DNA from: Agrobacterium vitis
GTDB lineage: Bacteria; Pseudomonadota; Alphaproteobacteria; Rhizobiales; Rhizobiaceae
Reading direction: 5' to 3'
Assembly (NCBI RefSeq): GCF_037039395.1
Contig: NZ_CP146244.1
Span: forward strand, 558,001 to 622,000
DNA: 64,000 nt
Shown: positions 29,137 to 48,236 of the stretch, piece by piece
How the letters are laid out: the number at the start of each line of letters is the position of its first letter
Numbering within the stretch: the stretch's first letter is position 1
Made by a program: the position numbers and the translations under genes
The notes under the pieces: model-generated
Told to the model about the DNA's origin: nothing
The model's database searches: none
What the model saw: only the letters and a program-made list of their open reading frames with translations

Positions 29137-29181
29137 TTGACACATTTTTAGGCCACCCTTAACAATTTCTACCAAATGGTA
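29137..29181 (+). promoter_or_regulatory. Promoter and RutR-like palindromic operator of the BMP operon
   Basis: TTGACA at 29137-29142 is a good -35 hexamer. The matching -10 (AACAAT at 29161-29166, 18-bp spacing) is weak, which would suit an activated or derepressed promoter. Just downstream is the palindrome TACCA-AA-TGGTA at 29170-29181, followed by the ribosome binding site AAGGGG. Its core ACCA-NN-TGGT equals the core of the known RutR (pyrimidine-sensing TetR) operator. No regulator gene for it lies next door. The assignment is inferred from the motif. Confidence 0.5.
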
Positions 29182-29197
29182 AAAAAAGGGGTTCAGA

Positions 29198-30184: not shown

Positions 30185-30191
30185 GCCAACC

Positions 30192-31601: not shown

Positions 31602-33118
31602 CCGTGCCAGTGCTCGACATCATTGGGGTCAGCAAACGGTTTGGCAGCAATCGGGCCAATGATGACATTTCGCTATCACTGGCGAAGGGCGAAATTCTGG
31701 CGCTACTGGGGGAAAACGGGGCGGGAAAAACCACCCTGATGAGCATCCTTTTTGGCCATTATGTGCCAGATACCGGCAAGGTTCTGGTGGAGGGCAAGGA
31801 GTTGCCACCCGGCAAACCGCGCGCCGCCATTCGGGCAGGCATTGGCATGGTGCATCAGCATTTTTCGCTGGCCCCAAACCTGACCGTTTTGGAAAACGTC
31901 ACAACGGGAACAGAGAGCCTATGGTCCCCGCGGTCACGGCGTGCGCAGGCACGGGAAAAGCTCATGGCCATTTCCAGCCGCTTTGGCCTGAAAGTCGATC
32001 CCGATGCCCGTCTCGGTGATCTCTCGGTGGGCGAGCAGCAGCGTGTCGAAATCCTCAAGGCGCTCTACAATGATGCCCGCATTCTGGTGCTGGATGAACC
32101 GACCGCCGTTCTCACCCAAGTTGAGGCGGAAACACTGTTTGCCACCTTGAAAGACATGGCAGCACAGGGCCTGTCGCTGATTTTCATTTCCCACAAGCTG
32201 GATGAGGTGATGTCTGCCGCCGACCGGATCGTGGTGCTGCGGGGCGGGCGGCGGGTGGCGGAACGCAAGGCAGCAGATACCAGCAAGGCAGAGCTTGCCG
32301 AGCTTATGGTGGGGCGCACTGTGACCCGACCCGTGCGAGAGGCCTCCAAACCCGGTGATATTGTTCTGGAAGCAGCACACCTGAGCGTCCGCAAAGACGG
32401 GGTCGATGTGCTGAAGGCAATCGATTTCCGGCTGCGGGCTGGCGAGGTTCTCGGCATCATTGGCGTTTCCGGCAATGGTCAGGGCGCTTTGGCGCAAGTG
32501 CTCTCCGGCACCATGCCGCATACGGCTGGCAACCTTCTGGTGTTCGGCACCCCGATGGATAGTCTCTCGGTGGCAGATGCCGTGACGGCTGGCATCGGTC
32601 GCATTCCTGAAGACCGCAATAAGGAAGGCGTGATCGGCGAGATGGCGATCTGGGAAAATGCTATCCTTGAGCGCCTCCCTGCCTTTTCACGGCGCGGTCT
32701 TGTTAATCGCAAGGCGGGGATGGAATTCGCCCGCACCATCATCGAACAATTCGATGTACGCGGTGGCACGCCCGCCAGCCGCATCCGGCTGCTGTCCGGC
32801 GGCAATATGCAGAAACTTATTCTGGGCCGCAACCTCATCAATCGACCCCGTATTCTTCTGGCGGCCCAGCCCGCGCGGGGTCTGGACGAAGGGGCGGTGG
32901 CGGCGGTACATGAGCGCATTCTCGAAGCACGCAGGGCCGGAACCGCTGTGCTGCTGATTTCCGAGGATCTGGACGAGGTTATGGCGCTAGCCGACCGCAT
33001 TCAGGCCATTGTTGGTGGAAAGCTCTCGCCGCCGATCAACGCGGAGGACGCCAATGCCCGCAAACTCGGCCTGATGATGGCAGGTGAATGGCAGACGGAG
33101 ATGTCCCATGCGGTTTGA
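31598..33118 (+). CDS. ABC transporter ATP-binding protein with two nucleotide-binding domains (BMP/nucleoside class)
   Basis: The 506-residue protein carries two ABC domains. The first has Walker A G-E-N-G-A-G-K-T-T near residue 38, signature L-S-V-G-E-Q-Q-R and Walker B V-L-D-E-P-T-A-V-L. The second is degenerate, with G-V-S-G-N-G-Q-G-A for Walker A and L-S-G-G-N-M-Q-K for the signature. Its A-A-Q-P-A-R-G-L-D replaces the Walker B glutamate region. This asymmetry is normal in the BMP-associated ATPases. It energises the permeases encoded next. Its ATG overlaps the amidase stop by four bases. Confidence 0.93.
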   Translation: MTVPVLDIIGVSKRFGSNRANDDISLSLAKGEILALLGENGAGKTTLMSILFGHYVPDTGKVLVEGKELPPGKPRAAIRAGIGMVHQHFSLAPNLTVLENVTTGTESLWSPRSRRAQAREKLMAISSRFGLKVDPDARLGDLSVGEQQRVEILKALYNDARILVLDEPTAVLTQVEAETLFATLKDMAAQGLSLIFISHKLDEVMSAADRIVVLRGGRRVAERKAADTSKAELAELMVGRTVTRPVREASKPGDIVLEAAHLSVRKDGVDVLKAIDFRLRAGEVLGIIGVSGNGQGALAQVLSGTMPHTAGNLLVFGTPMDSLSVADAVTAGIGRIPEDRNKEGVIGEMAIWENAILERLPAFSRRGLVNRKAGMEFARTIIEQFDVRGGTPASRIRLLSGGNMQKLILGRNLINRPRILLAAQPARGLDEGAVAAVHERILEARRAGTAVLLISEDLDEVMALADRIQAIVGGKLSPPINAEDANARKLGLMMAGEWQTEMSHAV

Positions 33119-34157
33119 GCGACGCGAACATCGTCCGCTTGTGCTGGTTATCGCCACGCCGATCATGGCCATTGTCGCCGCGTTGGCGATCTCAGGCATT
33201 CTCATTGCCATAGCCGGTGCACCGGTTCTGGAAGCCTATTGGCGGATTCTCACCGGTGCTTTCGGCTCGCGACTTTCAACCACAGAAACACTGACCCGCG
33301 CGACACCCCTGATACTGACAGGTCTTTCGGCGGCAGTGGCGTTTCGGGCGCGGCTGTGGAACATTGGGGCCGAGGGCCAGCTTTATCTCGGTGCCATCAC
33401 CGTTGCGGCGGCAAGTTCGCATCTTTTGGGTGATTTACCCCCAGTGATCCAGATTCCCGCCCTGCTGATCCTCGGCGCACTTGCGGGCATGGTTTTGTTG
33501 CTCCTGCCGCTTTGGCTGCGCCTGCGCTTTTCCGTGGACGAAGTGGTGACAACCCTGCTGCTCAATTTCGTTGCCGTGCTGTTTGTCTCAATGCTGATTG
33601 ATACCGTGTTGAAAGACCCGATGGCTTTCGGTTGGCCGCAATCGCAATCGGTGGCCGATGCTGCCATGTTGCCAAAGCTGCTTTCGCGCTCACGCCTGCA
33701 TTTGGGCCTCGTCATTGCCGTGCTGCTGGCTCTTGTGCTGCATTTTGTCCAGCAGCGTACGGTGTTTGGCATTCGCTCAAGAGCGGCTGGCCTCAACCCG
33801 GCAGGGGCCGTTTTTGCTGGCGTGCCGCTTGGCCGCACGCTGGTCACAGTTGCCTGCATTTCCGGTGGTCTTGCGGGGCTTGCAGGGGCTGTGGAAGTCA
33901 TGGGCGTCAAGGGCTATGTGACGACGGACCTTTCTCCCGGCTATGGCTATTCGGGCATTGTGGTGGCCATGCTGGCCAATCTTAATCCGCTGGGCGTTGT
34001 GCTGGCGGCGCTGTTTACGGCCACCATGTTCGTCGGTGCCGACGGCATGAGCCGCGCCATGGGCATTCCCAGCTATATTGCCGATGTGACGGTGGCGCTC
34101 TCGCTACTGACCATGCTGACCGCGCTGTTTTTCACCCAATACAGGATTGTCCGATGA
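33108..34157 (+). CDS. ABC transporter permease 1, nucleoside/BMP class
   Basis: The 349-residue membrane protein (BPD_transp_2 family) has an N-terminal span at about residues 14-40. The characteristic run L-W-N-I-G-A-E-G-Q-L-Y-L-G-A lies at about residues 84-97, and G-Y-G-Y-S-G-I-V-V-A-M-L near residue 280. It forms the channel with the next gene product. I use ATG 33108, which overlaps the ATPase stop by eleven bases; a GTG at 33084 is in frame but less likely. Its stop overlaps the start of permease 2. Confidence 0.9.
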   Translation: MRFERREHRPLVLVIATPIMAIVAALAISGILIAIAGAPVLEAYWRILTGAFGSRLSTTETLTRATPLILTGLSAAVAFRARLWNIGAEGQLYLGAITVAAASSHLLGDLPPVIQIPALLILGALAGMVLLLLPLWLRLRFSVDEVVTTLLLNFVAVLFVSMLIDTVLKDPMAFGWPQSQSVADAAMLPKLLSRSRLHLGLVIAVLLALVLHFVQQRTVFGIRSRAAGLNPAGAVFAGVPLGRTLVTVACISGGLAGLAGAVEVMGVKGYVTTDLSPGYGYSGIVVAMLANLNPLGVVLAALFTATMFVGADGMSRAMGIPSYIADVTVALSLLTMLTALFFTQYRIVR

Positions 34158-35098
34158 GTGCCATGATGGACATCCTTGTTTCAACGGGTCTTTGGGCCGC
34201 AGTCCTCAGGATTGCGACGCCACTGATTTTCGGCACGCTGGGCGCTTTATTGTGCGAACGGGCGGGCGTGCTTAATCTCGGCATCGAAGGCATTATGACG
34301 TTCGGTGCCATGATTGGCTGGTTATCGGTCTATCACGGTGCTGATCTGTGGACTGGCCTTTTGATTGCGGCACTTGCGGGCGGTGTTTTCGGCACTTTAC
34401 ATGCGCTTTTGACGGTCACGCTCGGACTATCCCAGCATGTCTGTGGCCTCGGGATTACGCTGTTTGCGTCCAGCTTCAGCTATTACACCTTCCGTCTGGC
34501 GGTTCCAGTCGCAGGCTCCCCGCCCACCATCGTTCCGTTCAAGCCGATAGCCATTCCGGGTCTCAGCGATCTGCCCTTTGTCGGCCCTGCCTTTTTCGTG
34601 CAGACACCGCCAACCTATCTTGCCATTCTGCTGGCGGTCATTCTCGCCTATGTCATCTTTCGCACCCCACTGGGCCTTGCCATCCGCATGACCGGCGAAA
34701 ACCCCCATGCGGCGGAAGCGCAAGGAATTAACCCAATGGCGGTGCGCTACGGTGCCGTGATTGCTGGCTCGGCCCTGATGGGCATGGCCGGGGCTTTCCT
34801 GACGCTGTCGGCGTTCAACAGCTTTTTCCCCACCATGGTGCAGGGACGCGGCTGGATTTGCATTGCACTCGTGGTGTTTTCATCGTGGCGTCCGGGGCGG
34901 GCGCTGCTGGGTGCACTGCTTTTTGCATTTTTCGATGGCTTTCAACTGCGCCTGCAAACGGCGCTGGGCGGGGCAGTGCCCTACCAACTGTTTCTGATGA
35001 CCCCCTACATCCTGTCCATCGCCGCCCTTGCGGTGATGGCGCGCCGCGCCCGCGTACCGCAGGCGCTGATGCAACCCTATCGGCGCGGCGAGCGCTGA
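34154..35098 (+). CDS. ABC transporter permease 2, nucleoside/BMP class
   Basis: The 314-residue partner permease has the family segment E-R-A-G-V-L-N-L-G-I-E-G-I-M at about residues 31-44. It also has a late M-G-M-A-G-A-F-L-T-L-S and about eight to ten hydrophobic spans. With permease 1 it forms a heterodimeric channel for the BMP-bound solute. It starts four bases before the preceding stop. Confidence 0.91.
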   Translation: MSAMMDILVSTGLWAAVLRIATPLIFGTLGALLCERAGVLNLGIEGIMTFGAMIGWLSVYHGADLWTGLLIAALAGGVFGTLHALLTVTLGLSQHVCGLGITLFASSFSYYTFRLAVPVAGSPPTIVPFKPIAIPGLSDLPFVGPAFFVQTPPTYLAILLAVILAYVIFRTPLGLAIRMTGENPHAAEAQGINPMAVRYGAVIAGSALMGMAGAFLTLSAFNSFFPTMVQGRGWICIALVVFSSWRPGRALLGALLFAFFDGFQLRLQTALGGAVPYQLFLMTPYILSIAALAVMARRARVPQALMQPYRRGER

Positions 35099-35114
35099 GC
35101 GAAGGAAACACGCC

Positions 35115-36404
35115 ATGTTCGATCTCATCATCCGCAATGCCAACCTGCCAGATGGCCGCAAGGGTTTCGATATTGGCCTTTCCGGCGGAAAGATCACCGC
35201 CATCGAAAAGCGGCTGGATGCTGTGTGCGGCGAGGAGATCGATGCAACGGGCCGCCTCGTTAGCCCACCCTTTTGCGATCCGCATTTTCACATGGATGCA
35301 ACGCTGTCACTTGGCATGCCGCGCATGAATGTGTCAGGCACATTGCTGGAAGGCATCGCGCTCTGGGGCGAGCTGCGACCGCTGCTGACCAAGGAGGCGC
35401 TGGTTGAACGCGCCTTGCGCTACTGCGATCTCGCGGTCTCTCAAGGCCTGCTGTTTATCCGAAGCCACGTCGATACGTCCGATCCAAGACTGGTCACAGC
35501 AGAAGCTTTGATTGAGGTGCGCGAACGGGTGGCACCCTATATCCAGTTGCAGCTCGTGGCCTTTCCGCAGGATGGCTATTACCGTGCTGAAGGCGGCGTT
35601 TCCTCGCTCAACCGCGCACTGGATATGGGCATAGACATCGTCGGCGGCATTCCGCATTTCGAGCGGACGATGGATGAGGGGCGATTGTCGCTGGAGGCTC
35701 TCTGCCGTATCGCTGCCGAGCGGGGCCTGCCAGTCGATATCCATTGCGACGAGACTGACGATCCGATGTCACGCCATATCGAGACGCTGGCGGCGGAAAC
35801 CATTCGCCATGGGCTGCAAGGCCGCGTGGCGGGATCGCATCTCACCTCCATGCATTCCATGGATAATTATTACGTCTCCAAGCTTATTCCGCTGATGGCG
35901 GAAGCGCAGATCAATGTCATCCCCAACCCGCTGATCAACATCATGCTCCAGGGCCGCCACGACACCTATCCGAAACGTCGCGGCATGACACGGGTGCGCG
36001 AGTTGATGGCGGCGGGCCTCAACGTCTCCTTCGGTCAGGATTGCACCATGGACCCTTGGTATTCTATGGGATCAGCCGACATGCTGGAGGTGGGCCATAT
36101 GGCCATCCATGTGGCGCAGATGGGTGGGCTGGACGACAAGCGACAGATTTTTGACGCTCTCACCGTCAATTCCGCGAAAACCATGGGTCTCGAAGGCTAT
36201 GGCCTAGAGATTGGCTGCAAGGCCGATCTCGTGGTGTTGCAGGCCGCTGACGTGTTTGAGGCGCTACGCCTCAAGCCCTCGCGCCTGTTCGTGGTCAAGG
36301 GCGGCAAGGTGATTTCCCGCACAGCACCCCGCATTGGAGAGCTGTTTCTGGAAGGTCGCCCTGCGGCTATTGATAGCGGGCGCGATTACGTGCCGGTTTA
36401 CTGA
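35115..36404 (+). CDS. CodA-like metal-dependent deaminase (pyrimidine/triazine-type base deaminase)
   Basis: The 429-residue TIM-barrel amidohydrolase aligns by eye along its length with E. coli cytosine deaminase. Metal ligands are H57-F-H59, H210-C-D-E213 (acid/base Glu), H242 in S-H-L-T-S-M-H, and D309. The substrate-reading glutamine lies in L-Q-L-V-A-F-P-Q. In CodA the residue after the metal Asp is a second Asp (D314), which shapes specificity; here it is Cys310 (G-Q-D-C-T-M-D-P-W-Y). The enzyme is therefore probably not a plain cytosine deaminase but acts on a related base. It is the last gene of the BMP operon and ends with a 7-bp tail-to-tail overlap with the opposing amidohydrolase gene. 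Confidence 0.87.
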   Translation: MFDLIIRNANLPDGRKGFDIGLSGGKITAIEKRLDAVCGEEIDATGRLVSPPFCDPHFHMDATLSLGMPRMNVSGTLLEGIALWGELRPLLTKEALVERALRYCDLAVSQGLLFIRSHVDTSDPRLVTAEALIEVRERVAPYIQLQLVAFPQDGYYRAEGGVSSLNRALDMGIDIVGGIPHFERTMDEGRLSLEALCRIAAERGLPVDIHCDETDDPMSRHIETLAAETIRHGLQGRVAGSHLTSMHSMDNYYVSKLIPLMAEAQINVIPNPLINIMLQGRHDTYPKRRGMTRVRELMAAGLNVSFGQDCTMDPWYSMGSADMLEVGHMAIHVAQMGGLDDKRQIFDALTVNSAKTMGLEGYGLEIGCKADLVVLQAADVFEALRLKPSRLFVVKGGKVISRTAPRIGELFLEGRPAAIDSGRDYVPVY

Positions 36405-38005
36405 TCCGACATTGAATTGTAGCGGTAACGACGATAACCAGCCCCAAGGCCAAGCTGGCGCAGGCTGGATTCGAGATGCGGTAGCAGCGTTTCTACCGCC
36501 TGCCAGGCGTCTCGTTCCGCTGATGTTTCCGGGCGTGATAAAATGGCCTCGATTTCCGCCATCACGGCATCGCGGTCCACGGTTGTCACGCGACCGCCAT
36601 CGACGACCAGTCTTCCACCAACGAAAACCTGTTCTATGGCGTGACGCCCACCGCGATGCAGCAGGGCTTCCACGGGCGGAGTGCGTGGGTTGATGGCTGG
36701 GCGGGCGATGCGGTTCATGTCCATCAGCACGATATCGGCTTGCCAGCCGGGTTCGAGGCGTCCGGTAAATCCACCGAACCCGGCAGAGGCCGCGCCATGT
36801 TCGCTGGCCATTTGCAGTACCGCGCCCGCATCCGGCCTATCGTTCCAAAGCCCGGTTTCCCGATGCAGCGCCCAGACCAGTTTCATTTCCAGCGTCATGT
36901 CGCGGTCGTCGGCAATATTCGACTGGTCGATGCCGAGGGCCACCGGAATACCACGCCGCCGCATCTCGTTGAGAGGCGCGATGCCACTGCCGAGCCTGAG
37001 GCCGGAAGAGGCATTGTGGCAGATGGTACAGCCGCAGGAGGCGATGATGTCGAGATCCTCGCCGCTCGTCCAGTTGCCGTGGCCAAGCGTCACATTGGCA
37101 TCAAGGCATTGCAGTTTTTGCAGATGCTTGACCGCGCTGCGGCCATAGGTGCGCCGGGCAAATTCCGCCTGCCGCTCGGTTTCGAGAAGATGCATGTGAA
37201 CCTGGCCACCAGCCGCCTTGGCCGTCTCGAAAATCGTCTGCAAGGCATCATCGCTGCACCAGTGCAGATTGGCGGGCGCCAGATTCATGCGGATATGCTG
37301 CGGGTCGTTTTTCATAAAACGATTGCGCAGGTCCTGGTAGAATTCCATCAGCCGGGCTACCGGAATATCGGCATTCGCCAGCTGTGGCGCAATCCAGTCA
37401 CGCGCCTTGGCAGGCAGGCGGCTCAAGATATCGGCATCCGGCTCGTAGGACAGAATATTGCGGTCGCGGATCATGAAGCAATAGCCGAGCCGCATGCCGA
37501 TTTCGCCATAGGCCGAGATGGTTGCTTCTGCCGTCTGCATCCAGCTATCCGGCGTGCCGGAAAAGCCGCTATGGATGTGCTGCACGGTGGTCGTGCCGCT
37601 TTCCAGCATTTCGATCGCCGAATAAAGCGTATCCAGCCGCTGGTCGATGCGGCGCATGGCGCGAAATTGCGGCAGCCAGAGTTCCAGTGGCGCAAAAGGC
37701 ACGCCTTGCATCAGCGGCGTCACACCGAAATGGTGGTGCGCGTTGACGAGGCCCGGCATGGCAATCATCCGGCGCGAGCCAAAGCGTGGCAGGTGGTCAT
37801 TGCCATAGCCGACCGCTTCCATCGGCCCGATTTGGGCAATCATCCCCTTCTCGACGCGGATACCGACATCGTGACGCATGGTCATTTTGCCATCCGCGCC
37901 AAGGCCGGTCAGCCCGGTGCCGGCCTCAAGGCCGGTCAGCACGGTGCCGGCCTCGATGATGCAATCTGCGCCGGGATTGTCCGGCATCGCAATGGCCTGT
38001 GTCAT
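36398..38005 (-). CDS. Amidohydrolase, TrzA/AtzB/guanine-deaminase-like (ATZ_TRZ family)
   Basis: The 535-residue enzyme has the metal-binding set of the cytosine deaminase-related hydrolases. P-G-L-V-N-A-H-H-H-F lies near residue 84, V-H-M-H-L-L-E-T-E near residue 265, and G-H-G-N-W-T-S-G-E near residue 305. C-H-N-A-S-S-G-L-R-L-G-S-G comes near residue 328 and the catalytic Asp is in A-L-G-I-D-Q-S. These enzymes deaminate or dechlorinate N-heterocyclic rings, including guanine and s-triazines. The N-terminus holds a 9-residue tandem duplication (A-G-T-V-L-T-G-L-E then A-G-T-G-L-T-G-L-G). It is the last gene of the long minus-strand operon, overlapping the preceding gene by four bases. Confidence 0.88.
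   Translation of the reverse strand: MTQAIAMPDNPGADCIIEAGTVLTGLEAGTGLTGLGADGKMTMRHDVGIRVEKGMIAQIGPMEAVGYGNDHLPRFGSRRMIAMPGLVNAHHHFGVTPLMQGVPFAPLELWLPQFRAMRRIDQRLDTLYSAIEMLESGTTTVQHIHSGFSGTPDSWMQTAEATISAYGEIGMRLGYCFMIRDRNILSYEPDADILSRLPAKARDWIAPQLANADIPVARLMEFYQDLRNRFMKNDPQHIRMNLAPANLHWCSDDALQTIFETAKAAGGQVHMHLLETERQAEFARRTYGRSAVKHLQKLQCLDANVTLGHGNWTSGEDLDIIASCGCTICHNASSGLRLGSGIAPLNEMRRRGIPVALGIDQSNIADDRDMTLEMKLVWALHRETGLWNDRPDAGAVLQMASEHGAASAGFGGFTGRLEPGWQADIVLMDMNRIARPAINPRTPPVEALLHRGGRHAIEQVFVGGRLVVDGGRVTTVDRDAVMAEIEAILSRPETSAERDAWQAVETLLPHLESSLRQLGLGAGYRRYRYNSMSDQ
37899..37952 (-). repeat. 27-bp in-frame tandem duplication in the amidohydrolase start region
   Basis: Two adjacent, slightly imperfect 27-bp copies (beginning GGCCGGTCAG on the plus strand) encode the two 9-residue repeats at residues 18-36 of the amidohydrolase. 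The copies are GC-rich and in frame, so the protein stays open. Coordinates are approximate by a few bases. Confidence 0.7.
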
Positions 38006-39048
38006 GTCCGATAGTCTCCAATCAGGCCGAGACGCCGCGCTGCGGCCACGCGACAGAGCGGGTCTGCATAGATCGTCATTTCCTGCGCTGCCGAATAGGC
38101 AAGGCTGATATCATGTTCGTCATAGCTGCTGGCTGCCGCCGCAAAAATCTCCGGCCAATCCGGTACGGGCAGCGCACGCCAGCGCGAGATCTCCTCCTCC
38201 AGCGGCAGGGTCGGAAAGTCCAGTTCACGCATCAGCGCCGCAATCGCCTGCCAGAATACCCGCAGCAGGGTGCCCTGGGTTTGCCGGTCGCAAGTGGGGC
38301 TGAGCAGGCGTATCCAATGCAGGCCTGTGACCACATGAAGGGCGGCGAAATGCTGAGTGGCCGCAAATAAGCGGATGGCGACATCAGCCATTTTTTCCAT
38401 CGTATCGGAGCCGATCTCTAGCCAGTCTACAACAGGAACAAAATCCGGCAGGGCGGCAGCGTCACGCATGTTCTGCCACAGAAGATCATGAAGCGTCAGC
38501 GTGTGCATGGGGGCGATCAGCGTGACCCGGCGCAGCACTTCTGCCGGATCATCGGTGACAGGGCTTGCGCCGGTCGCAGGCGGCAGTGCCAGATAGGTCG
38601 CCGCCCAATAGGCAAGCGCAATGGCGATATCATCTTCGTTTTGGCGCAACACGCCATAGGCCGTGCGCATCAGGGCGTGGAAGGCGCTTGCCGCTACGCC
38701 TGGTGCAAGATCCGGCAGATAGTGCTTGAGCGCTGCCTCTATTCCGAGCCGGGAGACTTCAGCGGAAAAAAACAGCCGCAGATCCGGCTCCCGCTCGCGT
38801 TGACCGAGAACGGAGCGCCAGCTTGCTGCATCAAGCGGCGTGGATGGCTGGCCGAAGGGCAGCAGTTTTTTATAGCTTTTATAGTGGTTGAAAAAACGGC
38901 GCATCTGGGCAGGTGTGCCGCCAATTTCGGCCAGGGCGCAGAGCACCATGGGCGCATGGTTGGCGAAGGTACCGGTAAATTCCGATCCCCAGACGGGCAT
39001 TTCGGCAAGCAGTGCCTCGACCTCCGCTGCTTTGGCTGGTGCCATCAT
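38002..39048 (-). CDS. Questin-oxidase-family protein (AflY/DUF4243-like)
   Basis: The 348-residue, largely helical protein matches the questin oxidase family. Fungal members such as AflY are proposed to carry out Baeyer-Villiger-type ring cleavage without a known cofactor. Visible family marks are F-A-N-H-A-P-M-V-L near residue 30, A-S-A-F-H-A-L-M-R-T-A-Y-G near residue 130, and H-V-V-T-G-L-H-W-I-R-L-L. Several conserved histidines in these motifs could bind metal. Bacterial members are rarely studied. ATG 39048 follows a GAGGAG site; the frame extends to a GTG at 39069 but that is less likely. Its place between creatininase- and amidohydrolase-like genes suggests a ring-opening step. Confidence 0.75.
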   Translation of the reverse strand: MMAPAKAAEVEALLAEMPVWGSEFTGTFANHAPMVLCALAEIGGTPAQMRRFFNHYKSYKKLLPFGQPSTPLDAASWRSVLGQREREPDLRLFFSAEVSRLGIEAALKHYLPDLAPGVAASAFHALMRTAYGVLRQNEDDIAIALAYWAATYLALPPATGASPVTDDPAEVLRRVTLIAPMHTLTLHDLLWQNMRDAAALPDFVPVVDWLEIGSDTMEKMADVAIRLFAATQHFAALHVVTGLHWIRLLSPTCDRQTQGTLLRVFWQAIAALMRELDFPTLPLEEEISRWRALPVPDWPEIFAAAASSYDEHDISLAYSAAQEMTIYADPLCRVAAARRLGLIGDYRT

Positions 39049-39062
39049 GGTGTTCTCCTCGC

Positions 39063-39881
39063 TCAGCACAGGTTCGAAAAGCGCGTCTGCGATGTAAGTT
39101 GCGAAAGATCGAAGGCCTGCGTCGCAGCAATCAGGTTGACAAGTCCGTCGGCGGCACGATCAAGCACGATCTGGCCCTTCTGCGCCGTTGCATTGCTGGC
39201 ATTTCCGCAGACGCCAGCCGGATGCAGATCCTGCGCCTGCCAGCCGAAACCCACGGCACCTTCTGCCGTCAACATGCTACCGGCCTCGGCAATCGCCACC
39301 GTCAGGGGGATGAAATCCTCGGCTTTGTCCATGGCCACCCGCTCCGGCGCAATTGCCAGCATCATGCTGGTTTCGATGTCGCCACCATGGATGCCGTGGT
39401 CGATTTCCTCGCGTGAAAACAGATCCTCCACCGGCGCGATGCGGAACCAGGAAAAGGAAACCGCCAACATGCCAAGCTCGATACGGATATCGCGGCAGAT
39501 GATGTCCATCAGCGCCATCTGGCCGCCATGGGAATTGAACAGAATCAATTTCGCCGCACCCGCACGTTTGACGCTGCGGGCCAGATCCAGCCAGACGTGG
39601 CGCAGGGTTTCGCCGGAGATCGCCAACGTGCCGGGGAAGGCGATGTGCTCGTCGGATTTCCCGACCACCATGGGCGGCAGGAACAGGACGTCGGTGTCCG
39701 GCTGCAAGCGTTCCACCGTGCGCCGGATGATCTCCGCATTGATGGCCGCATCGACATCGACGGGCAGATGCGGGCCGTGTTGCTCGACAGCGGCGATGGG
39801 AAGCACCACCACGGTTTTTGAGAGATCCCGATCGGCAAAGGCCTGGGTTGAATGATCGACCCAGTAGAAAGACCTGATCAT
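39063..39881 (-). CDS. Creatininase-family amidohydrolase
   Basis: The 272-residue enzyme has the creatininase metal site. V-E-Q-H-G-P-H-L-P-V-D-V-D (Glu, His and Asp ligands) lies at about residues 32-44, and N-S-H-G-G-Q at about residues 115-120. G-G-D-I-E-T-S-M-M comes near residue 165. Family members open cyclic amides such as creatinine or cleave formamide intermediates of riboflavin and mycofactocin chemistry. Here the setting is a transport and catabolic operon, so a lactam or cyclic-urea substrate is likely. Its ATG overlaps the oxidoreductase stop by four bases. Confidence 0.87.
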   Translation of the reverse strand: MIRSFYWVDHSTQAFADRDLSKTVVVLPIAAVEQHGPHLPVDVDAAINAEIIRRTVERLQPDTDVLFLPPMVVGKSDEHIAFPGTLAISGETLRHVWLDLARSVKRAGAAKLILFNSHGGQMALMDIICRDIRIELGMLAVSFSWFRIAPVEDLFSREEIDHGIHGGDIETSMMLAIAPERVAMDKAEDFIPLTVAIAEAGSMLTAEGAVGFGWQAQDLHPAGVCGNASNATAQKGQIVLDRAADGLVNLIAATQAFDLSQLTSQTRFSNLC

Positions 39882-41359
39882 GATGCTTTTTCCATCATCC
39901 GTGCCGCATTTCGGGCAGCAATATCAGCTTCGAAATCATCACTGACCGGCAGGTCCTGCGAGCAATAGGCCTCCAGCCCCGGCAGGATAGCCTGTTCCTG
40001 ATCCAGCAACATTCGGCGCTCGATACCGCGCACCACCCTTGGCAGCGCATAGCGATGGCCGCTGATCGAGGTGGAATGCGGGCCATGGCTGACGAAACTC
40101 GCGCTGTTGAAGGCAAAAACCCGGCTGACCCAGCTGTCTTCCGGCACCTTCGGTAGGAACGCATAATAGGGGTCGAGATAGGGCAATTGCGACAGCCGCG
40201 CATCTTCCTCTCCGGCGGGAGGCGTGAAGTGCTCACTCCAAAGCGCAACTTTTGGGGCCAGGGTTTTCAGTTCCGGGCGTGCTGAGAGATCGACATCCAT
40301 GCCGGTTGCCAGCAAAAGGTGATCGAAAACCAGCACGCCATCGGGCGTTTTCACCGACACGGCGCCGTCCTTTTCAAAAACCTCCAGCCACGGTGTGGCG
40401 GGGCGCAGGGTAAAGCCCGGCAGGGCCATGGCCGTCTCAAAGGCGCGCACCGGCGGTGGCTGATCGGTACTGCGGAAAAACCGGGCGATTTGCCAGCGAG
40501 TATGGTCGGAAAGCGCCCCAAAACCACTGAGAAGCGGCGGTGCTTCCAAAGCGCGGTGCGGATTGGTGCGGGGCAGACGTGTCCGGCGAAAGCAGAGATC
40601 GACCGAGGCAGCGCCGCTGTTCAGCGCGGTGACGGCATTGTCGAAGGCTGAGGCGCCGTGACCGAGAATGCCGATCCGCTTGCCCTTCAAGCGATGGAAA
40701 TCCACCGGTCCGTTGGTATGGTCATAGAACTCTGGTGGCAAAGCGTCTGAAATGAAGCGCGGCACCCGCCAGGCACCGGCACCGTCAAATCCGGTGGCCA
40801 GAACCACGGCCCGCGCCAGATGGCGCTCGACATGTCCCTGCCGCAGAGTGATGACGGCCATAAGGTCGCCTTCGGGCGACACATCCGTAACGCTTGTTTC
40901 ATTGGTAATGGCAATGTCGAAAACCTCGGCATACCAGTCCAGATAGGCCTTCCAATCGGTGCGGGGGATGCGGCCCAGCGTCTGCCAGGCCTCGAGCCCA
41001 TAGCGGGTTTCGAACCAGCGGCGCACCGAGAGATTGGCGACGTTGAATTCGTTGCCGACCGCCGTTTTGGGGGTGCGCAATTCTTCCATGCGGGCAAAGG
41101 TGATCCATGGCCCTTCCGCGCCAGCCGGGGCGCTGTCGAACAGGCGGATCTGCTGGACCCCATCCCATTTCAGCGCCGCCGCAATGGTGATCGCCGACTG
41201 TCCCCCGCCAACGATGGCGACATCGCAGACGGATGGGGCAGAGACGGACAGTGGCGCAAGCCAGGGAGCCGCCGGATAGGCGAGGGCGGCAAGATCGGCT
41301 CTTGCAGCGTCCTTTAAACGGGCAAGTGCTGCGACGGCGTCGGGGAGAGGGTCAAGCAT
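39878..41359 (-). CDS. FAD/NAD(P)-dependent monooxygenase-like flavoprotein
   Basis: The 493-residue protein has an FAD motif V-A-I-V-G-G-G-Q-S-A near residue 48. A second dinucleotide motif, I-L-G-H-G-A-S-A-F-D-N-A, lies near residue 240. It also shows V-L-A-T-G-F-D and L-L-A-T-G-M-D glycine turns. This is the layout of class B flavin monooxygenases and ornithine-hydroxylase-like enzymes, but the strict Baeyer-Villiger fingerprint is not seen. It could hydroxylate or N-oxidise the imported substrate. I use ATG 41359, which overlaps the permease stop by eight bases. Confidence 0.83.
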   Translation of the reverse strand: MLDPLPDAVAALARLKDAARADLAALAYPAAPWLAPLSVSAPSVCDVAIVGGGQSAITIAAALKWDGVQQIRLFDSAPAGAEGPWITFARMEELRTPKTAVGNEFNVANLSVRRWFETRYGLEAWQTLGRIPRTDWKAYLDWYAEVFDIAITNETSVTDVSPEGDLMAVITLRQGHVERHLARAVVLATGFDGAGAWRVPRFISDALPPEFYDHTNGPVDFHRLKGKRIGILGHGASAFDNAVTALNSGAASVDLCFRRTRLPRTNPHRALEAPPLLSGFGALSDHTRWQIARFFRSTDQPPPVRAFETAMALPGFTLRPATPWLEVFEKDGAVSVKTPDGVLVFDHLLLATGMDVDLSARPELKTLAPKVALWSEHFTPPAGEEDARLSQLPYLDPYYAFLPKVPEDSWVSRVFAFNSASFVSHGPHSTSISGHRYALPRVVRGIERRMLLDQEQAILPGLEAYCSQDLPVSDDFEADIAARNAARMMEKAS

Positions 41360-42149
41360 GGTCTGAGGGTCCTGAAACACTGTGTTTGTGCCGATTGCGG
41401 CGATAAAGCTCGCTGGCAATGACAATCAAGGCTGTCAGCAAAAGCACCACGACCTGCATGGCGTTGAGGTCGGGCTTCAGCTCGCGCCGGAATTGCGATG
41501 CGACGATCAACGACAGCGGCTGGGTGCGACCGGCGAGAAACATCGAAATGGTCAGATCTGCGAGCGACAGGATGACACCGATGGAATAGGCCGCGCCGAT
41601 GGCGCCCTTCAACTGCGGCAGCACGATACGGCGAAAACTTTGCCAGGGGGTGGCCCCCAAATCGCGAGCGGCATCTTCCAGCCGTTTGTCGAGACGGATG
41701 ACGGTGGCGGCAATGATGGTGGTAGCAAACGGGATGGCGACCAATGTTTGCGCAGCGATCAGCGCACCGGCCCCGCGTCCCAGCCCTACCCAGTTCATCA
41801 GCATGGCCTGGGCAATCGACAGCACCGTTTTCGGTACCAGAAACGGCAGGACAATCAGAAAGATGAAGACCGGACGAAGGGCGAGCTTTGACGAAGCAAG
41901 GGCCAGGGCCGCGCAAAGACCGATCAAGGCCGCCAGCAGGCCAACGGGCTGTGAGATCAGGAAACTGGTCAGGAAGCCATTCAGAAAGGTCGCATTGCCG
42001 AACAGGTCTTTGTACCAGGACAGCGTGAAACCGCTTAACGGAAAAGCCATCAGGCTGGAGGCATTGAAGGAAAAAAGCGCCAGCACGATGATCGGCAGGT
42101 AGAAGAAGCCGACAGCCAAGCCAAGTGTCAGGATGATCCGCCGGTTCAT
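41352..42149 (-). CDS. Polyamine-type ABC transporter permease (PotC class)
   Basis: The 265-residue protein has six hydrophobic spans. The PotC-type segment is F-N-A-S-S-L-M-A-F-P-L-S-G-F-T-L-S-W-Y near residue 30. The coupling loop D-A-A-R-D-L-G-A-T-P-W-Q-S-F-R-R-I-V-L-P lies near residue 165. The start is ATG 42149, overlapping the previous gene by four bases; the longer frame to 42245 runs back into that gene. Confidence 0.91.
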   Translation of the reverse strand: MNRRIILTLGLAVGFFYLPIIVLALFSFNASSLMAFPLSGFTLSWYKDLFGNATFLNGFLTSFLISQPVGLLAALIGLCAALALASSKLALRPVFIFLIVLPFLVPKTVLSIAQAMLMNWVGLGRGAGALIAAQTLVAIPFATTIIAATVIRLDKRLEDAARDLGATPWQSFRRIVLPQLKGAIGAAYSIGVILSLADLTISMFLAGRTQPLSLIVASQFRRELKPDLNAMQVVVLLLTALIVIASELYRRNRHKHSVSGPSDHA

Positions 42150-43024
42150 TTCAAGCTCCCCTGAAGGACGGCCCGCGCCCCTTTCAGCCGCAGCAGCAGC
42201 CAGGCCATAGTGCTTGCCGTTGCAAACAGCGCAATTAACAGGCACAGCGCCAGGGCTGAGGCGAGCGGCCAGTCGAAAGCCGTGCCGAACAGGTTGTCGA
42301 TCATCGTCATCGGGGTTGCGCCGGAGGTGCCACCCAGCATGCTTGGTGTCAGCATGTCACCGGCGGCGAGGGCGAAGACTGCCAGCAAGCCGACAGCAAG
42401 GCCCGGCACCGTCAGCGGAAAGATCACCCTTGTGAAGGCATCGAGTGGGCGGGCGCCGAGATCGCGGGCGGCTTCGATCAAGCGTCGATCGATCAATTCC
42501 GTCGAAATCCAGATTGGCAGCACCATGAAGGGCAGCGTGTCGTAGAGAAGAACGAGATGGGTGGTGAAAGGCGAAAACAACAGGAATTTGACGGGCTGAT
42601 CAATCAGACCAAGCCATTTCAACACCGCATTGACCAGCCCTTCGGAGCCCAGAACCACACGCCAAGCATAGATGCGGACGATTTCGCCGGTATAAAGCGG
42701 CGTCAACAGCACGATCTGGGCAATGCCCTTCCAGGCGATAGGCAGCCGGGAAATGGCGAGCGCGATGGGATAACCGAGCACCGCCGCCAGAAGGGCGGTG
42801 ACCAGCCCGGACAGAACCGCCTTGCCGATCAACAGGGCAAAGACCGGATTGGAGATCATCTGCCCCCAGCTATGCAGGGAAAGGTCCGGCACCATGACGA
42901 AAGCATCCAGATCCACCGTGAACAGGCTGAAGGCCACCAGCAGCATCAGCGGCAAGAGACAGCCCAGGACCAGCAGCAGTGAGACGGGAAGCGCCAGATG
43001 CGCACGGTTGAGGGCGAGCGTCAT
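42146..43024 (-). CDS. Polyamine-type ABC transporter permease (PotB class)
   Basis: The 292-residue protein has six spans and the loop E-A-A-R-D-L-G-A-R-P-L-D-A-F-T-R-V-I-F-P-L-T that docks to the ATPase. The L-T-P-L-Y-T-G-E-I-V-R segment near residue 105 is typical of PotB-like permeases for polyamines and other small organic cations. Overlaps of four bases on both sides make it part of one translational unit. Confidence 0.91.
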   Translation of the reverse strand: MTLALNRAHLALPVSLLLVLGCLLPLMLLVAFSLFTVDLDAFVMVPDLSLHSWGQMISNPVFALLIGKAVLSGLVTALLAAVLGYPIALAISRLPIAWKGIAQIVLLTPLYTGEIVRIYAWRVVLGSEGLVNAVLKWLGLIDQPVKFLLFSPFTTHLVLLYDTLPFMVLPIWISTELIDRRLIEAARDLGARPLDAFTRVIFPLTVPGLAVGLLAVFALAAGDMLTPSMLGGTSGATPMTMIDNLFGTAFDWPLASALALCLLIALFATASTMAWLLLRLKGARAVLQGSLK

Positions 43025-44136
43025 GATGCAAGCCTCGTGATGAAGCAGGAAGCGCAGTCGAGCGTCATCGTGATTGTCGAGTCCGGTTCCGCTGGCCGGT
43101 CAGCCATCAGCCGCGCCGTCACGCCTGATATGTCCGCCTCGATCAGATAACGGTCGCCCTTGAAGACGGCATGTCGGACCTTCCCTGTGAGAGCTAGAGA
43201 TGGCGGAGCATGTCCATCCGTTGCGCCGAGCCGCAAATGTTCAGGCCGGATCACCAGGGCGGCGCGTTCGCCTTTCGCAAGACCATGGATGGCTGAAGTG
43301 GTGATGGTTCCAAGCGGCGTCCCGATGGTTGCCGTCTCCGTATCAATCGCCAGAATTTCGCCCTCCACCAGGCTCGCCGAGCCGATAAAATCGGCGACGA
43401 ACGTGTCGGCAGGTCGCGCATACAGCGTCACCGGGTCGGCTTTCTGGGCGATCTTGCCCTTGTTCATCACCACGACGATATCCGACAGCGCAAACGCTTC
43501 CTCCTGGTCATGGGTGACATAGACGAAAGCAATGCCGAGGCGCCGTTGCAGGTCTTTCAGCTCGATCTGCAAATGCCCGCGCATCTTGCGATCCAATGCC
43601 GAAAGCGGCTCATCAAGCAACAGCAGATGCGGCTCGGCGATGATGGCGCGGGCCACCGCCACCCGTTGCTGCTGGCCACCCGACAGCTGGTGCGGATAGC
43701 GGCTGCTGAATTCGCCCATGTGTACGGCGTCCAGCGCGCGCTTCACACGCGGTGCCGGGTCCTGTGCGCCACGGCGCAAGGTGAGGGAAAAGGCGACATT
43801 CTCGAACACGGTCAGATGCGGAAACAGGGCGTAATTCTGGAACACCGTGTTGACCGGCCGCCGCTCGGGCGGCACGCCCGCCAATGAGCGTCCGTCGAGA
43901 ACCAGCGACCCGGCATCCGGGGCCTCGAAACCGCCGATCATCCGCAGGATCGTCGTTTTGCCGCAGCCGGAGGGGCCGAGAAAGGTGGTGAAGGCGCGCT
44001 CTGGAATCTCCAGGTCCACGCCATCGACCGCACGGTTGCGGCCATAGGACTTGACGAGGCCTCTTGCGGACAAGAGCATCGGCAAACCGGTTCCGAGGTT
44101 TTGGTCCGGTGCTGTCGTATCCCATGCCTGCGTCAT
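43021..44136 (-). CDS. Polyamine-type ABC transporter ATP-binding protein (PotA class)
   Basis: The 371-residue ATPase has Walker [10 protein letters not shown] near residue 55, signature L-S-G-G-Q-Q-Q-R, Walker [12 protein letters not shown] and a switch V-T-H-D-Q. A C-terminal TOBE domain spans about residues 260-360. It powers the PotB/PotC-like channel encoded after it. It starts three bases beyond the binding-protein stop. Confidence 0.93.
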
Positions 44137-44139
44137 GCC

Positions 44140-45222
44140 TCAGCTCGCCTTGACTTCGTTCCAGATTTTCAGCCAGTCGGAATAATTGGGCGGAGCTACC
44201 GGCCACATGAAGGATTTCATCACGTCCATATCGTCAACGAAGATCGTTGCCTGTTCTTCATGCGAAAGCTTGTCACGGATAACCGAGGAGGTGGTGGCGT
44301 AATGACCGATCCGGGCCACATCGGTGGAATAGCTCGGCCCAAGCAGATAATTGATGAATTTATAGCCGATTTCGGTTTTTTCCGGCGAAAGATCGGCAGG
44401 CATGCCGAAGCAGTCGCACCAGCCCATCACGCCAGCTTTCGGCTTGGCCATGCCCATTGGCAGCTTGGCCTGTAGCTCGTCATAGGGTACGCGCCAGGAG
44501 AAGGCGCAGGAGACTTCGCCTGTGGCGAAAAGATTGGTCAGGTCGCCGATGGTCTGCCAGTAGGTGCGCAGCAGCGGCTTCTGGGTGATCAGCAGTTTCT
44601 TCGCCTCGGCCAGTTCCTTGGCCTCCATCACGAACACTTTGTCGCGCGGCACACCGGCAACCAGACCGGCGATGGCGATGGATTCCAGGGCGTAATCGCG
44701 CATGGCGAGCTGGCCGGAATATTTCGCATCGAAGAGCGTGGTATAATCAGGCTCCTTGTCGAACTTGTCCTTGCGGTAGACGATCGGGTTCAGGCCCCAG
44801 AGATAGGGAATGGCAAAGGTCTTGCCAGCCTCGTCCATTACCTTGGGTGTGGATTTGAAGACATCATACATCAGGCTGGCATTGGGAATTTTCGACAGGT
44901 CCAGCTCCTTCAGCAGACCGGCCTTGATATAGCGCCAACTGCCGTTCAGCGACGGATTGATCATGTCCCAATCGGCAGCGGCCCCGGTTTTCAGCGCGGC
45001 AAACTGTGCGTCTTCGCTGGAGAGATAGGAAAGCTTGACCTTGACGCCGGTTTCCTTTTCAAAGGCGGCAACATATTCAGGATGGCCGTTGGAGTCCCAG
45101 GTTGCCCAGACCATGTCGGAGACTGCGGCGCGTGCGATGCCCGCATTTGAAACCACCCCTGCGGCAGCACCCGCCGCCATTCCCGCCAGCACGTCACGCC
45201 GTGTGATACCTGTCCGTTTCAT
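44140..45222 (-). CDS. Polyamine-type ABC transporter periplasmic binding protein (PotD class), Tat-exported
   Basis: The 360-residue protein has a twin-arginine signal (T-R-R-D-V-L-A-G-M-A near residue 8). The body is of PotD class, with W-A-T-W-D-S-N-G-H-P at the mature start, F-A-I-P-Y-L-W-G-L-N-P-I near residue 140, and N-Y-L-L-G-P near residue 285. The ligand is unlikely to be proven putrescine or spermidine, because the operon carries amide- and ring-cleaving enzymes rather than polyamine catabolism genes. ATG 45222 is chosen; the longer frame to 45285 adds residues before the signal. Confidence 0.88.
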   Translation of the reverse strand: MKRTGITRRDVLAGMAAGAAAGVVSNAGIARAAVSDMVWATWDSNGHPEYVAAFEKETGVKVKLSYLSSEDAQFAALKTGAAADWDMINPSLNGSWRYIKAGLLKELDLSKIPNASLMYDVFKSTPKVMDEAGKTFAIPYLWGLNPIVYRKDKFDKEPDYTTLFDAKYSGQLAMRDYALESIAIAGLVAGVPRDKVFVMEAKELAEAKKLLITQKPLLRTYWQTIGDLTNLFATGEVSCAFSWRVPYDELQAKLPMGMAKPKAGVMGWCDCFGMPADLSPEKTEIGYKFINYLLGPSYSTDVARIGHYATTSSVIRDKLSHEEQATIFVDDMDVMKSFMWPVAPPNYSDWLKIWNEVKAS

Positions 45223-45327
45223 GGAGCCCCATCCGGTTCTTGTTGCGATGAGGACAGTGTGCGGACTTTCGATCGAAACGGCCATAAGGCAAAGGCAATA
45301 GTGTCTATTGCGTTGATCGAACCACCT

Positions 45328-46317
45328 TCAGCTGAGCTGCATGTGGCGCACCGGCGGAAGAGGCAAGGGGCCGGGGCGGTCGAGCGCTTGCATCTCGGTG
45401 GAGGCATTCTTGATCATCCGGCGCAGCCACGCCTGGTCTGGCGCGTGATGTTTGCGGTCGTGCCAGAGCGTATAGAAGTGCATCTGCCCCAATTCAACCG
45501 GAGCGTCCAGAACCGCGAAGGGGAAGGTTTGCGCCACCTGTTCGGCAAAGTGCCGTCCGGTGGTGAAGACGAGGTCGGAGCGGGCCAGCACGTAGGGCGC
45601 GATGGAATATTCCGGCACCGTGGCGCGGATATGCCGCTTGACGCCGAGATCGAGCAATCGTCCGTCGATGGGGCTGAATTGCGCGTCCCGTTCTGACGTC
45701 GGGGACAGATGGCTTTCCTCGAGATATTCATCGAGCCGGATGCGATCCCGGTTGCGTCGCGCAAAACGATGCGTGGATCTGACCATGCAGACGATATCGG
45801 TCTTCAGCATCGGCGCGATGCGCAGGTGCTCCGGCGGGTGGGGCCAATTGCCGATCACTGCGTCGATCCGGCCCTCAGACAATCCCGATAGCAGGTCATC
45901 CTGGGATGGCATTGGCGAGGCATCGATGGAAATGCCGGGGGCCATGTCGGTGATCGCGCCGATCAGTTGCGGCATGAACACGGTGCCGAGACAATTGCTG
46001 GCAACAATGCGAAAATGACGAACGGATGCGGCGGGATCGAAAGCGGTCGGAGAAATCAGGTGGGTATCGATCCGTCCGAGAATGTCATTCATAGCCGAGC
46101 GCAGCGCCAGCCCGCGCTCGGTCGGCACCAGCGCGCTGCCGGAACGCACCAGCAGCGGGTCCTGAAAAATATCGCGCAGCCGCTTCAGGGTCAGGCTGAC
46201 GGTCGGCTGCGCCTGGCCCAGCAGATCGGCTGTGCGCGACACGCTGCATTCCGTCAGCAGCAAGCGCAGGGTGCGCATCATACGGATATCGAGATTTGCA
46301 TAGGCCTGCTCCGACAT
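45328..46317 (-). CDS. LysR-family transcriptional regulator
   Basis: The 329-residue protein has an N-terminal helix-turn-helix at about residues 18-75 (L-L-T-E-C-S-V-S-R-T-A-D-L-L-G-Q-A-Q-P-T-V-S-L-T-L-K-R-L). A periplasmic-binding-like effector domain follows. It resembles the NodD/TrpI-like LysR group in its L-V-P-T-E-R-G-L segment. It lies 105 bp upstream of the transporter operon in the same direction and is the likely activator. ATG 46317 has an AAGGAG site; the longer frame to 46494 does not. Confidence 0.9.
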   Translation of the reverse strand: MSEQAYANLDIRMMRTLRLLLTECSVSRTADLLGQAQPTVSLTLKRLRDIFQDPLLVRSGSALVPTERGLALRSAMNDILGRIDTHLISPTAFDPAASVRHFRIVASNCLGTVFMPQLIGAITDMAPGISIDASPMPSQDDLLSGLSEGRIDAVIGNWPHPPEHLRIAPMLKTDIVCMVRSTHRFARRNRDRIRLDEYLEESHLSPTSERDAQFSPIDGRLLDLGVKRHIRATVPEYSIAPYVLARSDLVFTTGRHFAEQVAQTFPFAVLDAPVELGQMHFYTLWHDRKHHAPDQAWLRRMIKNASTEMQALDRPGPLPLPPVRHMQLS

Positions 46318-46586
46318 GCTCGTACTCCTTTGACGGTGAGTAACTTGATGAAAAGCATTTTCTATGCCAGTTGCCGGCTGGGTAACGGGGGCCTTTCCGC
46401 TTTCGAGCCTATGCCAGGCGACCCCGCCGCCAGCACAGGTCCCAAGCACAATGAGGCGGTTTCGCCCGGTCATTGGGTCTTGGCGCATAGTCATATGTAA
46501 CGGATTGGGGACCCTGCGGCGTTACGGCACCTTTCTTGCATCTCTGTTTTCAAAAGAGCGTCAAGCGCAACAATAAGGGGAAACTC

Positions 46587-48236
46587 ATGGCGAAAACTGT
46601 TCAAGACGATGCTAGCGAGGCAGGTAAGCTGCTGTCCGTACGAGGATTGACTGTCGGCTTGCCGCCGGGCATGGACCGCCGATATGCGGTGGAAGATATG
46701 TCCTTCGACCTGAAGGCTGGAGAAATTCTCTGCATTATCGGCGAATCCGGCTCGGGCAAATCCGTGACGGCCAATGCCACGATGGGACTTCTGGCACAGT
46801 CTCTCCACATTGTATCCGGCAGCATTATGCTGGAGGGCCAGGAACTGGTGGGGGCCGATGACGCCACCTTGCGCGCGTTGCGTGGCCGGGTCGTTTCGAT
46901 GATTTTCCAAGACCCTTTGTCGGCGCTCAACCCGCTGATGACCGTAGGCGATCAGATCGCCGAGGTCATGGAAGCTCACGGCATTGGCACGCAGCAGGAG
47001 CGCAGGGTCCGCGTTCTCGAGTTGATCACCGAAGTGGGGCTGCCGGACCCGGAACTGATGCAGCATCAATATCCCTTCCGATTGTCCGGCGGTCAACGAC
47101 AGCGCGTGATGATTGCCATGGCGCTGGCGCTTGAACCGAAGGTGTTGATCGCCGACGAGCCGACCACCGCCCTCGACGTGACAACACAGGCGCAGATCCT
47201 TGAACTGATCGCGTCTATCCAACGCCGCAAGCAGATGAGTGTAATGTTCATTACCCATGATTTCGGCGTGGTGGCCGAGATTGCCGACCGTGTGATTGTC
47301 ATGGAAAAGGGGCATGTCGTCGAACAAGGGCCGGCATCCGTGGTGCTGAAAAACCCTGATCATCCCTATACGCAAAGGCTGCTTGCCGCCGTGCCGCGTA
47401 TGCGCGCCACCGACCGCGACAATGAGGCGGATACCCCCGTTGTTCTGGAGGCCCGAAATCTCTGCAAGACCTATGGCACAAGTTCAGGTTTCCTGTCGAA
47501 AGGACGCGTGATCAAGGCGGTCGATGATGTCTCGTTCACGATCGCCAAAGGCCGGACGCTGGGTATTGTTGGGGAATCCGGGTCGGGGAAATCATCGCTT
47601 GGGCGTCTTCTCGTCAAGCTGATGAACAGCGATTCCGGCGAAATCCTCTTCGGTGGCCGTGATATTGCACCCCTGTCGGAAGAGGCCTTCCGCCCGATGC
47701 GGCCCTATATCCAGATGATCTTTCAAGACCCTTTCGCCTCCCTCAATCCCCGTCAGACCATCGGCCGCATCTTGACCGTCGGTCCGGTGGCGCAGGCGAC
47801 GCCCATCCATGAGGCGAGAACACGGGCGATGCGGCTTCTGGAGCGGGTCGGTCTCGATGCAGGCGCTTATGACCGGTATCCGCATGAATTTTCAGGCGGC
47901 CAGCGGCAGCGTATCGGCATAGCCCGCGCATTGATGTTCAATCCCATGCTGATCGTTGCGGATGAAGCCGTTTCGGCGCTCGATGTTTCGATCCAGGCGC
48001 AGATCCTTCAGCTTCTGACGGAAGTGCAACAGGAAATGAAACTGGCCATGGCCTTTATCACCCATGATCTGCGCGTCGCCAGCCAGATCTGCGATGAGAT
48101 CGCGGTGATGTATAAGGGCCGTATTGTTGAATACGGACCACCCTCGCAGATCTTCCGCAACCCTACCCATGACTATACCCGCCAACTCGTCTCCGCTATT
48201 CCCGGCAGCGAATGGGAACCTGCCGTGATGGCATAA
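46587..48236 (+). CDS. Fused oligopeptide-type ABC transporter ATPase (DppD-DppF fusion)
   Basis: The 549-residue protein joins two full nucleotide-binding domains. The first (about residues 10-260) has G-E-S-G-S-G-K-S and L-S-G-G-Q-R-Q-R. The second (about residues 285-540) has G-E-S-G-S-G-K-S-S-L-G-R and F-S-G-G-Q-R-Q-R, with a D-P-x-x-S-L-N-P-R segment. Each is followed by the P-x-H-x-Y-T-x-x-L/R-L tail typical of peptide importers. It should energise the binding protein and permeases encoded from 50798 to 54512. It is separated from them by a MarR gene and an oxidase gene. The ATG has an AAGGGGA site. Confidence 0.92.
   Translation: MAKTVQDDASEAGKLLSVRGLTVGLPPGMDRRYAVEDMSFDLKAGEILCIIGESGSGKSVTANATMGLLAQSLHIVSGSIMLEGQELVGADDATLRALRGRVVSMIFQDPLSALNPLMTVGDQIAEVMEAHGIGTQQERRVRVLELITEVGLPDPELMQHQYPFRLSGGQRQRVMIAMALALEPKVLIADEPTTALDVTTQAQILELIASIQRRKQMSVMFITHDFGVVAEIADRVIVMEKGHVVEQGPASVVLKNPDHPYTQRLLAAVPRMRATDRDNEADTPVVLEARNLCKTYGTSSGFLSKGRVIKAVDDVSFTIAKGRTLGIVGESGSGKSSLGRLLVKLMNSDSGEILFGGRDIAPLSEEAFRPMRPYIQMIFQDPFASLNPRQTIGRILTVGPVAQATPIHEARTRAMRLLERVGLDAGAYDRYPHEFSGGQRQRIGIARALMFNPMLIVADEAVSALDVSIQAQILQLLTEVQQEMKLAMAFITHDLRVASQICDEIAVMYKGRIVEYGPPSQIFRNPTHDYTRQLVSAIPGSEWEPAVMA

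Follow-up and report, generated by a model that had tools for sequence, protein, structure and literature searches.

Which compound the products of nine closely spaced genes from Agrobacterium vitis act on, and by which chemistry, is the question raised by an operon located at 36398..46317, on the minus strand, of the window, i.e., the whole stretch of 64,000 nucleotides that was analysed (contig NZ_CP146244.1, positions 558,001 to 622,000, of a 6.04-Mb genome with five contigs). In a preliminary description these genes were reasoned to form one operon serving a single pathway for a cationic or neutral cyclic nitrogen compound. The open reading frame list and a Pfam scan bear out the gene content: nine frames are present, all on the minus strand and each with a Pfam match above the curated cut-off, namely LysR, SBP_bac_8, ABC_tran plus TOBE_2, two BPD_transp_1, an FAD/NAD(P) oxidoreductase (best match Lys_Orn_oxgnase), Creatininase, Questin_oxidase (PF14027) and Amidohydro_1. 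It is suggested here, with a probability of roughly one half, that the operon encodes a route for breaking down a small N-heterocycle, an amino- or oxo-substituted nucleobase-like ring being the likeliest candidate. This route would comprise import, flavin-dependent hydroxylation, iron-dependent ring opening and hydrolysis.

Ring opening is assigned to the DUF4243 (questin-oxidase-like) protein encoded at 38002..39069. Its PF14027 match (92.2 bits, cut-off 27) places it in the Pfam family, and its structure model (predicted local distance difference test score, pLDDT, of 90.5) has the fold of the solved members BTG13, PaD and 8yxs, all six significant fold matches being titled BTG13 questin oxidase, hydroquinone dioxygenase PaD or non-heme iron dioxygenase. 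The reactions of these solved enzymes and their iron ligands are background assumptions, in part taken from PDB entry titles. Five histidines were found to be invariant in 20 aligned DUF4243 rows, which is compatible with a histidine-bound iron and O2-dependent ring cleavage; as judged from the model, the protein probably is a non-heme-iron ring-cleaving oxygenase. Work on the DUF4243 family has so far centred on fungi and on producers of antibiotics, and the DUF4243 oxygenases known to us make or modify secondary metabolites. As compared to BTG13, PaD and 8yxs, the protein shares family and fold but is bacterial, is 14-17% identical to the solved fungal enzymes and is encoded in a catabolic-looking operon together with an importer, a flavoprotein and amidohydrolases. 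A parallel in terms of substrate class would be given by MinC and OzmD, the latter presumably a non-heme-iron enzyme, as there, too, a DUF4243 domain belongs to a pathway acting on an N-heterocycle. Those pathways are biosynthetic, however, and in MinC of minimycin (oxazinomycin) biosynthesis the DUF4243 domain is joined to a HAD phosphatase (PMC8724604), whereas an FAD monooxygenase is its partner in the present operon.

This predicted FAD/NAD(P) monooxygenase of 493 amino acids is encoded at 39878..41359. The enzyme belongs to its Pfam family (PF13434, 40.4 bits, cut-off 21.3), and its model (pLDDT 83.4) folds like ornithine, putrescine and cadaverine hydroxylases, the best Foldseek match being PvdA (E 1.6e-20); a sequence search of the PDB yielded no match at E 0.001. 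By modelled fold and Pfam family it is a SidA/PvdA-type flavoprotein, for which N-hydroxylation of an amine is a putative activity. Fold and PF13434 are shared with the N-hydroxylating flavoproteins SidA and PvdA, yet identity amounts to 14-19% in the listed matches and the context here is catabolic-looking, none of the genes read being a siderophore gene. A survey of 397 genomes of the order showed that 17 of the 29 genomes with DUF4243 have an FAD gene on the DUF4243 contig at a distance of at most 10 kb. In three genomes from two families (G357, G440, G432) both matches fall inside long open frames; loci from these three and three others were retrieved, and the frames L103:2418-5027(-), L104:8188-10806(+) and L105:8652-11165(+) are single proteins of 870, 873 and 838 amino acids, in which the FAD part precedes the DUF4243 part and both parts score above their Pfam cut-offs. 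With the join region as query, 17 proteins were obtained, 11 of which are FAD-only; P0241 is the L105 fusion protein, P0243 (822 amino acids, Methylocapsa by NCBI name) likewise has both parts in full, and P0242 is a partial fusion. Apparent fusions of DUF4243 with an amidohydrolase (P0244, P0246) and the long frame P0245 resemble frameshifted metagenome translations and were not used. Fused proteins usually represent consecutive steps, hence the natural fusions support the FAD and DUF4243 reactions being consecutive, and a fusion would suit the passing on of an unstable intermediate.

The remaining two enzymes are hydrolases. The ATZ/TRZ-type amidohydrolase (36398..38005), a predicted deaminase or hydrolase, belongs to the PF01979 superfamily (125.8 bits, cut-off 25), and residues H90, H92, H270, H272, E275, H309 and D360, which we take to be metal and catalytic sites, are invariant in 14 rows. 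It scores below the cut-offs of all 25 listed NCBIfam models (8-oxoguanine deaminase, methylthioadenosine/S-adenosylhomocysteine deaminase and others), the best reaching 170.4 bits against a cut-off of 543. The creatininase-family metallohydrolase (39063..39881) matches PF02633 with 232.3 bits and has E33, H35, D44, H118 and E170 invariant in 10 rows. Whilst this family is common to creatininase, MftE and IolN, the homologue stays below the cut-offs of all four NCBIfam models matched, among them the equivalogs of true creatininase (TIGR04448, 89.3 against 235 bits), MftE (TIGR03964, 121.9 against 172) and IolN (NF041098, 54.1 against 245). Creatinine breakdown as the role of the operon was rejected, since the creatininase equivalog cut-off is missed and the oxygenases would be without a part.

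A similar picture emerged for the importer, which consists of a PotD-type substrate-binding protein (44140..45285, with a start possibly at an internal ATG; PF13416, closest solved relatives PotD and PotF), an ATPase of the ATP-binding cassette (ABC) type (43021..44136; PF00005 and PF08402), a PotB-like permease (42146..43024; PF00528) and a PotC-like permease (41352..42149; PF00528). Families and gene composition are those of PotABCD, and PotA, PotB and PotC are the best NCBIfam models of the latter three; however, all equivalog cut-offs are missed (PotD 85.6 against 582 bits, PotA 361.1 against 482, PotB 154.6 against 348, PotC 133.6 against 326). Creatininase and polyamine-type importer, as named in the preliminary description, hence hold at the family level but not as equivalogs. 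In the binding protein six putative PotD-ligand positions are invariant in 25 of 25 orthologues; at the equivalents of PotD E171, D257 and the tryptophans the residue is retained, whereas Y37, Y85 and D168 are replaced by N, N and Y in all 25. From this residue pattern the ligand would be related to that of PotD but different, plausibly with an amino group, and of the cationic or neutral cyclic compound proposed earlier the N-heterocyclic nature is supported, while a cationic character is tentatively suggested by the partly kept PotD residues.

Conservation of the gene set was followed in 53 loci, obtained by scanning genome contigs, some of them short, on the basis of 20 aligned DUF4243 proteins and two peptide patterns. 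The nine genes, beginning with that of the LysR-type regulator (45328..46317, 329 amino acids from the ATG at 46317; PF00126 and PF03466 above cut-off), were found in the same order and on the same strand, each with at least 50% identity, in 24 of the 53. Since order is kept while single proteins are as low as about 60% identical, the grouping is more than chance. By open-frame clustering, the FAD enzyme accompanies DUF4243 in 37 loci, the ATZ/TRZ enzyme in 37, both together in 35 and the creatininase homologue in 29, with a further creatininase gene in L053. In distant loci the PotD-type importer is replaced by NMT1-type, OpuAC-type (L049), BMP-type (L074) or sugar-type (L090, L097) importers, the conserved part thus being the enzymes rather than the importer. 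Scattered enzyme genes with the transporter alone conserved, the finding that the preliminary description had named as speaking against a single pathway, are therefore not what the relatives possess, and the idea of one pathway gains support from the conserved order, the DUF4243-FAD-ATZ trio and the fusions. The closest named DUF4243 relatives are from Agrobacterium vitis (93% and 97%). Beyond these, a DUF4243 profile was matched in 4 of 398 genomes of a phylum draw (E 1e-15), and single-protein searches in 10 of 289 genomes of a class draw (E 1e-3), and in 14 of 100 relatives, 12 of these 14 being among the 60 genus genomes (own genome included) and nine of the 12 having at least 67% identity. 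Locus L040 (Methylorubrum zatmanii) has LysR, FAD, DUF4243 and ATZ/TRZ genes at 60-69% identity, with neither Pot-type importer nor creatininase within 21 kb, and possibly acquired its set by horizontal transfer.

Genes found next to DUF4243 in relatives bear on the substrate class. Between the creatininase and DUF4243 genes, 14 of the 24 full-order loci have a CocE/S15 hydrolase gene and 13 a cytidine-deaminase-fold gene, whose nearest solved relatives are CMP/dCMP, tRNA-adenosine and guanine deaminases. Cytosine-deaminase-like genes accompany DUF4243 in other loci and adjoin it directly in several Roseomonas-type loci. Judged by scanned representatives, L046-L048 have an HpxZ protein above cut-off, gamma-glutamyltransferase-like genes and an isochorismatase-type hydrolase that misses the cut-offs of RutB and BiuH. 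In L090 and L097 DUF4243 occurs with genes for a cytosine-deaminase-like enzyme, FGGY kinase and DeoR regulator, in L097 also with BtpA. The deaminase-type, HpxZ, isochorismatase-type and FGGY kinase neighbours favour a nucleobase-like N-heterocycle as substrate, and the earlier assignment to N-heterocycles is upheld by deaminase, ureidoglycolate-lyase-family and HpxZ neighbours. The L090/L097-type clusters resemble a pathway for a ring that carries a sugar; similar ones occur in L051, L066, L070 and L075, with DUF4243, a cytosine-deaminase-like gene, FGGY kinase and, depending on the locus, DeoR or BtpA. Vicine-type pyrimidines, pterins, flavins and creatinine were considered as specific substrates, and no result singles one out.

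The suggested pathway assumes that the LysR protein would induce the operon and that the PotD-type ABC importer, whose ligand site differs from that of PotD, would bring the compound in. Next, the SidA/PvdA-fold flavoprotein may hydroxylate it at the expense of NAD(P)H and O2, yielding an electron-rich, O2-labile, hydroquinone-like ring, which the DUF4243 protein as probable non-heme-iron oxygenase would open with O2. The ATZ/TRZ amidohydrolase and the creatininase-type hydrolase would cleave C-N bonds of amino or amide groups, either in the substrate itself or once the ring is open, a stage to which many relatives may add the cytidine-deaminase-fold enzyme and the CocE-type hydrolase, and the ureide- or amidate-like acids expected as products would enter general nitrogen catabolism. 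As a more tentative extension, with chances somewhat short of even, the FAD monooxygenase and the DUF4243 oxygenase, sometimes one polypeptide, may constitute an undescribed oxidative ring-opening module. Such a module would pass an O2-labile heterocycle between active sites and, in Rhizobiales and other Alphaproteobacteria, be the central part shared by several pathways that break down nucleobase-like compounds, importer and deaminase being route-specific. A literature search, with most subscription journals outside its scope, revealed neither a catabolic DUF4243 operon nor, in line with the preliminary description, a described pathway with this gene set. If true, the conserved catabolic-looking operon would give the DUF4243 family a role in the nitrogen nutrition of plant-associated bacteria, by way of a two-enzyme ring-opening cascade testable on few substrate classes (amino- or hydroxy-pyridines, pyrimidines, purines, pterins).

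Several observations weigh against the suggested N-heterocycle route. The 53 loci were collected by starting from DUF4243 and two peptide patterns, whereby near relatives are favoured, and the host operon type has neither CocE nor cytidine-deaminase-fold gene, as is the case in 7 of the 24 full-order loci (A. vitis type included); elsewhere in the host genome, CocE/S15 yields a weak match only (E 6.5e-4), and the cytidine-deaminase-fold gene a 61% match on the same contig (G000:C4:382581-383030). In the order survey, which scored the first few candidates per genome so that both counts may be low, the FAD enzyme occurs in 72 of 397 genomes as against 29 for DUF4243, and 12 of these 29 have no FAD gene within 10 kb. 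Of 12 FAD loci retrieved that have no DUF4243 gene close by (L078-L089), eight (L078-L083, L086, L087) showed neither deaminase nor hydrolase of these families over the stretch read, L082 and L086 having Pot-like importers. In L088 and L089 genes for importer, FAD enzyme, CocE and deaminase are present, but those for DUF4243 and ATZ/TRZ are absent. Consequently, the FAD family extends beyond this pathway. In L088 and L089 a PF04115 (ureidoglycolate lyase) gene directly follows the FAD gene and an AMP-binding ligase is present, with creatininase in L088 only; L084 resembles DUF4243 loci in its LysR and NMT1-type importer genes, and a gene of isochorismatase type occurs in L085.

Given a PotABCD-kind importer, nearest FAD-enzyme folds that hydroxylate amines and the kept PotD E171, D257 and tryptophan positions, the operon could serve to break down a polyamine, free or conjugated, the imported amine being N-hydroxylated by the flavoprotein and hydrolases stripping acyl or ring groups. 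This appears unlikely, as the enzymes persist in loci that have another type of importer, three of the putative ligand positions are replaced throughout, and the ring-cleaving fold and deaminase-type neighbours would be left without evident role. An accessory purine route degrading urate or a close purine, with the FAD enzyme as a relative of HpyO, is judged just as unlikely. A possible relationship to HpyO, a urate hydroxylase that uses FAD and NAD(P)H (PMC4562309), is suggested by the automated Joint Genome Institute name FAD-dependent urate hydroxylase on homologues P0134, P0137, P0203, P0204, P0223 and P0227, next to HpxZ and PF04115 in relatives, the latter also as a domain of the FAD homologue P0188. 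Other homologues were automatically named CzcO or SidA/IucD/PvdA, however, and neither 5-hydroxyisourate hydrolase nor 2-oxo-4-hydroxy-4-carboxy-5-ureidoimidazoline (OHCU) decarboxylase was found among the selection of neighbours scanned. Moreover, separate PuuD, OHCU-decarboxylase and ureidoglycolate-lyase genes stand on another host contig (C2), making plain urate oxidation an unlikely job of the operon. The titles of the six fold matches would agree with carbocyclic phenol or quinone catabolism, in which DUF4243 cleaves a hydroquinone like its fungal relatives, a side group (amide or amine) being taken off by the amide enzymes; in view of the low identity to the fungal enzymes, of ATZ/TRZ with DUF4243 in 37 of 53 loci and of cytosine-deaminase-like genes in others, this is regarded as improbable.

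As to operon layout, the ORF coordinates give overlaps of 4 bases for ABC/permease, permease/permease, FAD/creatininase and DUF4243/ATZ and of 8 bases for permease/FAD (FAD ATG at 41359). The creatininase/DUF4243 junction overlaps by 7 bases with a GTG start at 39069 and has a gap of 14 with an ATG start at 39048, as suggested by the 348-amino-acid relative P0001. Thus, five or six of the eight junctions overlap by 4-8 bases, in agreement with the preliminary description; the binding-protein and ABC genes are 3 bases apart and LysR and the binding-protein gene at least 42. A promoter scan gave one site against 3.2 expected from shuffles, terminator-like sites numbered 13 against 8.8 expected, and Rfam gave no match at gathering threshold across 28000-48000. 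The amidohydrolase gene lies tail-to-tail with a plus-strand cytosine-deaminase-like gene (36398 and 36404, 7 bases in common), the last of a convergent operon (29198-36404, plus strand) comprising a BMP-type binding protein, an amidase, an ATPase, two permeases and the cytosine-deaminase-like enzyme. Its CodA, permease and ATPase genes also adjoin the nine-gene operon in three A. vitis loci (L025, L032, L056), and an amidase related to that of the convergent operon adjoins ATZ/TRZ in L027 and L040. Nearer to the start of the window, 22601-28571 (minus strand) encodes large membrane proteins which, judged by eye, resemble a multi-subunit Mrp-type Na+/H+ antiporter.
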